From the NCBI GenBank assembly GCA_945883395.1, contig CAMCXP010000003.1, positions 1-49,630 on the forward strand: a stretch of DNA of 49,630 nt, read 5' to 3'. A model generated the notes under the pieces. The model saw nothing but the letters and a program-made list of their open reading frames with translations. It did not search any database and was not told the origin of the DNA. The DNA comes from Melioribacter roseus P3M-2. GTDB taxonomy: Bacteria > Bacteroidota > Ignavibacteria > Kapaibacteriales > Kapaibacteriaceae. Shown here piece by piece: positions 45,532-46,904 of this stretch. Every line of letters starts with the position of its first letter. The first letter of the stretch is position 1. The position numbers were made by a program, and so were the translations under genes.

Positions 45532-45981
45532 ATGCAACAGAATTCAACAAAAGTAGCGAGAACATCCCGACGCACGATGCTTATCAGCATTGGTGCGCTG
45601 CTGGCATCGTGGACAGGTGCTGAGGCACTTCGACGATTCCTTGCGCCCACAAGTGACGCATCGAGTCATGCCCACGATCTTGGACCACTCGATGGTGTCG
45701 TCGCCGACGGTGCACGCAAGGAGCTGACAATCGGCGGTACGCGCGTGCTGATTGCTCGGAGAGGCAATGACGTGCGCGTGCTCGACCTCACCTGTACCCA
45801 CGCTCGGTGTCCACTCGAGGTGCACCTGCCATCGAATCGTATTCGTTGTGCGTGTCATGGAGGAGCGTTCGATCTCGAGGGCAACGTCCTCAATGCGCCG
45901 CCTGTGCGCCCCCTTTCAACACATCAAGCCCGTGTCGTCAATGGCAACCTCTATGTGCGCATCCATCAGGAGCACACCTAA
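45532..45981 (+). CDS. Rieske [2Fe-2S] protein with Tat-like signal
   Basis: TSRRTMLISIGALLAS twin-arginine-like; CTHARC...CACHGGAFD Rieske cluster motifs. Start could be 45490 or 45532. Confidence 0.9.
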   Translation: MQQNSTKVARTSRRTMLISIGALLASWTGAEALRRFLAPTSDASSHAHDLGPLDGVVADGARKELTIGGTRVLIARRGNDVRVLDLTCTHARCPLEVHLPSNRIRCACHGGAFDLEGNVLNAPPVRPLSTHQARVVNGNLYVRIHQEHT

Positions 45982-46904
45982 TGCAGCAGACCGCATGGAT
46001 CGACACTGCGCGACGGATGTGTCTTGGGGTGTTTGCAATGCTCATCGGTGTCGAGCTGGTCACGGGGCTCCTGCTGGGCTTGCTCTATGAACCATCGCGG
46101 ATGCCTGCAGCAACACCCGACGGACGTCCAACAACGATGCTGATGGGTGAGCGCGTCGAGCGCGTTGGACCCTTCACCGACACCGTCGGAACTCCGTCGA
46201 CGCCGAGCTTTGTGCCTGCGCGCCCCGGCGAGCTTGTGCCAAGTGCTGCCGCAGCAAGCGTGCAAGTGCACATCGCTAATGCTCCGGGTGGTGCCATTGC
46301 ACGCGCTGTGCATCACACGCTCGCGGGATGGCTAGTGGTGTTGGCCTGCATCGTCGTTGTGTTATCTGCCATAGCGCGCGCGTATCAGCACGCTGCATCG
46401 ACCTGGGTGATGTCGATCGGGATGCTGATTATCGCCCTCGCCGCGGCATGGACTGGACGGATGTTGCCTGATGATATCTATGCCGAGGTGAGCCTTCGAA
46501 TTGTCGGACACGAGCTGTTGGAAGCGCCACTTGGCGATGCGCTCGTGGCGGTGCTGGGCATCGTGCCTGGCGAGCCCATGCTCGCGCGGACGTACTTCGT
46601 GCACATCCTAGTTGGCGCTGCGTCGGTATGGCTGGCCTATGTGCTCTGGCGGGAACGCCAGCACGTGCCGCTCGTCGTCGGCGCAGGCCTTGCGGTGGCA
46701 ATCATGGCTGCGATCATGCCGATCCACGCATTTGGTGCGCGGGATGCGGTTACGGGGCTTGCAGGCACCGTCCAAGTCGACCCCTGGTGGGTGATTCGCC
46801 CCCTTCACGAGCTGGTTGGCGTGCTCGGTGCCGAGCTCGCGGGGTATGTGATGCTTGGTGGTACGCTCGTGCTGGTCCTGCTCCCGGTCTGGAGGCGTCC
46901 ATAG
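45981..46904 (+). CDS. Cytochrome b family protein, divergent (Rieske/cytb partner)
   Basis: ATG overlaps the Rieske stop (TAATG). GVELVTGLLLGLLYEPS, SVQVHIANAPGGAIARAVHHTLAGW, TGRMLPDD and MLARTYFVHI align with cytochrome b/b6 landmarks. Confidence 0.82.
   Translation: MQQTAWIDTARRMCLGVFAMLIGVELVTGLLLGLLYEPSRMPAATPDGRPTTMLMGERVERVGPFTDTVGTPSTPSFVPARPGELVPSAAAASVQVHIANAPGGAIARAVHHTLAGWLVVLACIVVVLSAIARAYQHAASTWVMSIGMLIIALAAAWTGRMLPDDIYAEVSLRIVGHELLEAPLGDALVAVLGIVPGEPMLARTYFVHILVGAASVWLAYVLWRERQHVPLVVGAGLAVAIMAAIMPIHAFGARDAVTGLAGTVQVDPWWVIRPLHELVGVLGAELAGYVMLGGTLVLVLLPVWRRP

Follow-up and report, generated by a model that had tools for sequence, protein, structure and literature searches.

Our analysis indicates that an order-wide clade of cytochrome b proteins has retained one of the two heme sites of this protein and has lost the other one along with its quinone-reducing half, a reading that is well supported by the aligned sequences. 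In canonical cytochrome b, the first His residues of helices B and D ligate heme bL, whereas the second ones ligate heme bH. The protein under study is encoded in the window, i.e. the whole analyzed stretch of 49,630 nucleotides from Melioribacter roseus P3M-2 (contig CAMCXP010000003.1 of assembly GCA_945883395.1). The original prediction, which was made from the sequence alone, stated that the first His is present in both helices and that the second positions are taken by Val and Leu/Trp. This is correct for the window protein, in which H111 and H208 stand against V125 and L222/W223, and it holds throughout the clade (41/41 versus 0/41).

The cytochrome b reading frame (45981-46904, forward strand) begins with ATG and encodes 307 amino acids; its coordinates were exact and both previously quoted helix strings are present in it. 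It matches the Pfam family PF13631 with 33.9 bits at a curated cut-off of 27. A Rieske gene (Pfam PF00355, E=9e-14) is situated directly upstream, and its stop codon TAA overlaps the start codon of cytochrome b (TAATG), i.e. a Rieske [2Fe-2S] subunit is encoded with cytochrome b as in Rieske/cytochrome bc complexes. The features of the pair are as follows.

45532..45981, + strand: Rieske [2Fe-2S] protein, 149 aa, with N-terminal hydrophobic helix and the motif CTHARC...CACHGGAF
45981..46904, + strand: putative bL-only cytochrome b, 307 aa, helices A-F, PF13631
46065..46067, + strand: G29, bL-pocket glycine in helix A (equivalent to bovine G48), 41/41 in the clade, 23/23 canonical
46098..46256, + strand: A-B loop insertion (P side) with a D-T-V motif, about 47 aa beyond canonical length
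46311..46313, + strand: H111, predicted helix B ligand of heme bL, 41/41 in the clade
46353..46355, + strand: V125, at the canonical helix B position of the bH ligand, His in 0/41 of the clade and 23/23 canonical
46455..46457, + strand: G159, bL-pocket glycine in helix C, 41/41 in the clade
46602..46604, + strand: H208, predicted helix D ligand of heme bL, 41/41 in the clade
46644..46649, + strand: L222-W223, at the canonical helix D position of the bH ligand, His in 0/41 in the aligned column
46650..46670, + strand: D-E loop (N side) shorter than canonical and lacking the Qi-site Asp with its surroundings, judged from distance and alignment
46782..46793, + strand: Qo motif PWWV replacing PEWY, P in 39/41 and W in 40/41 of the clade

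The spacing within the helices places V125 at H111+14, and L222 and W223 at H208+14 and H208+15, respectively. The bis-His ligation of heme bL in helices B and D, as in a Rieske/cytochrome bc complex, would therefore be provided by H111 and H208, while that of heme bH is missing with V125 and L222/W223. The pair is flanked by genes which we take from their translations to encode a DegT-type aminotransferase (opposite strand) and, downstream, an alanine-dehydrogenase-like protein, and the same neighbors recur in other genomes of family f1. In the loci read, neither a CXXCH gene (cytochrome c1/f or cc subunit) beside the Rieske-cytochrome b pair nor a third conserved operon gene near cytochrome b was found. 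One f28 locus (L101 in G152) has an NAD(P)/FAD-dependent oxidoreductase-like gene downstream of the pair, which represents a possible extra partner in this family.

Whole-genome searches of the class, order and phylum yielded 41 homologues, which are distributed over six families (f1, f2, f3, f5, f27, f28) of the window's order, and all of them show the same bH loss. They were compared with 23 canonical control rows from the same class and phylum, which include an exact duplicate and a very similar pair. Canonical cytochromes b were found in family f4 of the same order as well as elsewhere in the class and phylum. The profile search was done with a phylum sample of 396 genomes, and the survey covers this one phylum; nearly all clade members had E-values between 1e-51 and 1e-107, whereas the best value among other cytochromes b was 1e-47, with two diverged members overlapping the canonical score range (G027 at 1e-47, G201 at 2e-42). 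Among the four-His cytochromes b, two from f4 (L073 in G221, L076 in G234; ORFs of about 900 aa) are fused to a long multiheme C-terminal domain with many CXXCH motifs, and a 531-aa ORF from f26 (L086 in G168) carries two 4Fe-4S-ferredoxin-like Cys motifs in its C-terminal region.

The joint alignment separated the two heme sites clearly. The bL His was present in helix B of 41/41 clade and 23/23 canonical proteins, and likewise in helix D (41/41 and 23/23), whereas the bH His was absent from all clade members in helix B (0/41 versus 23/23) and equally in helix D (0/41 versus 23/23). The bL-pocket glycines of helices A and C are both conserved (41/41 each versus 23/23), while the bH-pocket glycines remained in 4/41 (helix A) and 7/41 (helix C) clade proteins compared to 23/23 canonical ones. 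The Qi-site Asp occurs in 0/41 clade members, in 26 of which the column is gapped, versus 16/23 canonical proteins with Glu in another 6; thus the N-side Asp of the D-E region that belongs to the Qi site of Rieske/cytochrome bc complexes is lacking. The 41/41 to 0/41 pattern against 23/23 controls excludes chance or a sequencing slip. A slip-tolerant scan covered the positions +13 to +16 behind each bL His, and in no sequence did both helices carry a further His within this range; single cases, restricted to helix D, are a His at +14 in G056, whose helix B has none around that spacing, and one at +16 in each of two f2 members.

The clade is highly diverged, with a mean column identity of 22% in an alignment of 37 rows, in which apart from the start Met only G29, H111, G159, L162, G185, H208 and W270 are invariant. 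By their alignment positions, these residues are assigned to the bL pocket and the Qo side. PF13631 was matched by 36/37 clade members at E<=0.01, and the clade profile A1 matched cytochromes b from the PDB with up to E=1.1e-45. Alignments of this profile to solved cytochromes b, a check suggested beforehand, placed hydrophobic consensus residues at the bH histidines in both helices. An AlphaFold2 model computed from the window protein and its sister sequence only reached pLDDT 40 and pTM 0.26 and was discarded. The coordinated loss of the bH site that was proposed from the two missing ligands is strengthened, because the Qi-side Asp and the majority of the bH-pocket glycines are lost as well, while the bL elements stayed invariant.

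Other residues of the window protein were inspected as substitutes for the second heme site. H97, H112, H137, H177, H228, H249 and H276 were all rejected, since none of them is conserved across the clade. H137, H177, H249 and H276 correspond to the histidines that had been named as potential refutation of the bH loss; His falls outside the six most frequent residues in the column of H137, and it occurs in 6/41, 3/41 and 11/41 clade members at H177, H249 and H276, respectively. From cytochrome b topology, the last three are located on the Qo side. A covalent heme cN attached via C14 near helix A was also rejected, Cys being present in 4/41 sequences only.

With regard to the Qo site, the claim that PEWY is replaced was confirmed for the window protein. 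The motif aligns as P268-W269-W270-V271, in which E and Y are gone, but P and W are retained. Variants at the second position of PEWY have been published (PMC9162462). The loss of E and Y is strongest in family f1, while several families retain P-x-W-Y/F despite the missing bH. Hence, this loss is a feature separate from the bH loss, and their coupling, although both coincide in the window protein, proved only partly right and was rejected.

Two loops are also altered. The distance from G48 to H83 amounts to 82 residues in the window protein versus 34-35 in canonical proteins, and most clade members have an A-B insertion of +45 to +101 aa with a recurrent DT[LVI] motif; conserved Cys or His residues in the insertion were not found across the clade. 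Two bL-only members, L182 (G201) and L104 (G151), are without the insertion, which shows that it is separable from the bH loss and which rules it out as a defining mark of the clade. On the other side of the membrane, the distance from H182 to W is 62 residues in the window protein versus 85-91 in canonical proteins. The D-E loop is shortened in most families of the clade; it is no universal trait, as this stretch is longer in f28 members.

In the phylogenetic tree, a branch with support 100/99 separates the 41 bL-only proteins from the others, and a single change is sufficient to account for the bH state. The order of the families inside the clade is unreliable, because several rows have long end branches and odd composition. 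Given that all canonical controls have bH, its loss in the ancestor of the clade would be the simplest reading of these sequences. The dN/dS values of the cytochrome b frame amounted to 0.17-0.22; comparisons of the window genes with two relatives gave 0.19-0.22 for cytochrome b and about 0.09-0.10 for Rieske. These low values indicate that both genes are under purifying selection. Nevertheless, the complex is dispensable, because in five near-complete genomes of the sister genus g2 in the window's family (G037, G047, G138, G186, G195) no cytochrome b match was obtained. These genomes still have an NrfD subunit of the alternative complex III (ACIII) type and COX1, and their close relatives carry the bL-only form.

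The partner proteins and the respiratory chain of the hosts give further hints. Members of f1 and f28 have the Rieske gene directly beside cytochrome b. In f2, f3 and f5, the two genes lie apart, and the Rieske gene there encodes an N-terminal hydrophobic helix. Such unlinked loci are L093-L105 (f5), L039 and L041 (f2), and L181 (f3); in f3, cytochrome b follows NuoD-like and RNA-methyltransferase-like genes. Ser and Tyr raise the potential in ubiquinol-type Rieske proteins, and the CACHGGAF motif without these residues fits a menaquinol partner. A chosen panel of genomes yielded COX1 in 49/49 cases and an NrfD-type subunit in 48/49. In the 91%-identical sister G091, whose contig was the sole close relative from the scan of genome contigs, aa3 oxidase genes follow a complete ActABCDEF operon, and fragments of this operon are found on contigs C42 and C126 of the window genome G000; the Act subunit names are our assignment from lengths, CXXCH counts, and NrfD and COX1 matches. 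ACIII has also been reported for Candidatus Thermonerobacter from the same bacterial group (PMC6338057). Hence, ACIII accounts for the ordinary menaquinol:cytochrome c step.

The loss of the bH site and the quinone-reducing half would make the textbook Q-cycle impossible for the clade. The original prediction had drawn the same consequence, which is derived from the anatomy and is in line with the engineered Rhodobacter capsulatus bc1 mutant H212N (PMC4330944, PMC4807273). We consider it moderately probable that the clade forms a Qo-only, single-b-heme Rieske/cytochrome b complex that oxidizes menaquinol without Q-cycle and releases both electrons periplasmically via Rieske. The complex would be reduced to its periplasmic (Qo) half, consisting of the Rieske cluster, the Qo pocket and heme bL. 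Menaquinol would be oxidized at the Qo site, with the first electron going to the Rieske cluster. The second one would rest on heme bL and, without bH, might go back through Qo to the re-oxidized Rieske cluster, so both electrons would exit on the periplasmic side. From there we infer a route via cytochrome c to the aa3 oxidase, which would release two protons per quinol. With ACIII as the main quinol:cytochrome c step, the bL-only complex could specialize, for example as overflow or low-gradient route. In the H212N mutant, bL is still reducible from the Qo site while antimycin-sensitive cytochrome c reduction is abolished (PMC4330944). The bH knock-out is impaired, and H212K has been recovered under selection as functional reversion of H212N (PMC4807273); the hand-back of the bL electron would therefore need adaptations. 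The missing Qo Glu and Tyr in family f1, the absence of a cytochrome c gene from the operon, and the dispensability in the five g2 genomes all count against this explanation.

Alternatively, the Qo site might still bifurcate, and the low-potential electron could leave bL periplasmically to an acceptor docking on the enlarged A-B loop. The position of the insertion with its DT[LVI] motif on the same side as bL and the invariant bL site fit this idea, which we regard as unlikely, because a conserved acceptor gene beside cytochrome b is absent, the insertion is devoid of conserved Cys or His, and G151 and G201 manage without it. To a similarly low degree we expect a decaying or non-catalytic remnant, which might serve as Rieske anchor, assembly aid or redox sensor. 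The fast divergence (22% mean column identity), the long branches, the missing cytochrome b in five near-complete sister genomes and the unlinked Rieske genes in several families are in line with decay; however, the bL pocket and Qo-side residues are invariant in 41 proteins, the reading frames are intact at dN/dS of about 0.2, and a mere anchor would not need bL. Less probable still is a substitution of heme bH by another cofactor or subunit with continued transmembrane electron flow. Precedents are heme cN in b6f-type complexes and the extra heme predicted in anammox Rieske/cytb complexes (PMC12954380), but the N side of the clade proteins has no conserved ligand-capable residue (Cys at C14 in 4/41 only), the Qi Asp is lost and a conserved extra subunit nearby is absent. 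Finally, an ordinary cytochrome b could have been misread because of a pseudogene or of errors in alignment or assembly, for which the fragmentation of the G000 assembly into 168 contigs could be quoted. Such a misreading is extremely improbable and was refuted at the sequence level, as the same pattern recurs across 41 genomes, some of which are near-complete, and in the 91%-identical sister. The Qo-only complex is our preferred explanation.

That the second quinol electron must pass from bL to bH is a core element of the Q-cycle and of explanations for the avoidance of short-circuits in bc complexes. To our knowledge, cytochrome b without bH has previously been known only as engineered knock-out. 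A description of a natural form was not found in the open-access literature searched, the limited coverage of which gives no proof of absence; as far as found, the bL-only clade is thus the natural counterpart of a mutant known previously only from engineering. Its 41 sequenced natural versions provide material for testing whether the Qo site turns over productively without bH, as well as the fate of the second electron and the superoxide yield. Moreover, the clade may show a possible fate of a bc complex after ACIII takes over its main job.

Compared with known systems, the canonical bc1, bcc and b6f complexes share with the window complex a homologous cytochrome b (PF13631/PF00033) and an adjacent Rieske gene, as well as the bL ligands with their pocket and the P and W of the Qo motif. 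They differ in that the window clade is without bH ligands or Qi Asp and has lost most bH-pocket Gly, and in that the window complex has an enlarged A-B loop and an operon without cytochrome c1/f gene. ACIII, encoded in the same genomes, has the menaquinol:cytochrome c role that we also propose for the window complex, but an unrelated architecture with NrfD, Fe-S/molybdopterin-like and multiheme subunits. The best NCBIfam match was the b-type cytochrome ExtP of selenite/tellurite reduction operons (NF040969; 42 bits, residues 88-224), but this score is far under the 290-bit family cut-off and such an operon is absent here. The anammox complexes Kuste4569-4574 and Kustd1480-1485 of Kuenenia likewise have non-standard Rieske/cytb proteins and unusual proposed electron routes (PMC12954380); however, they gained cofactors and subunits, whereas the window complex lost them. 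The R. capsulatus H212N bc1 complex is also a cytochrome b without heme bH in which bL and Qo are retained (PMC4330944, PMC4807273). In contrast to this single point mutation, which left the Qi site intact and is under strong selection for reversion, the natural clade lost both ligands and the Qi Asp and has kept this state in six families.
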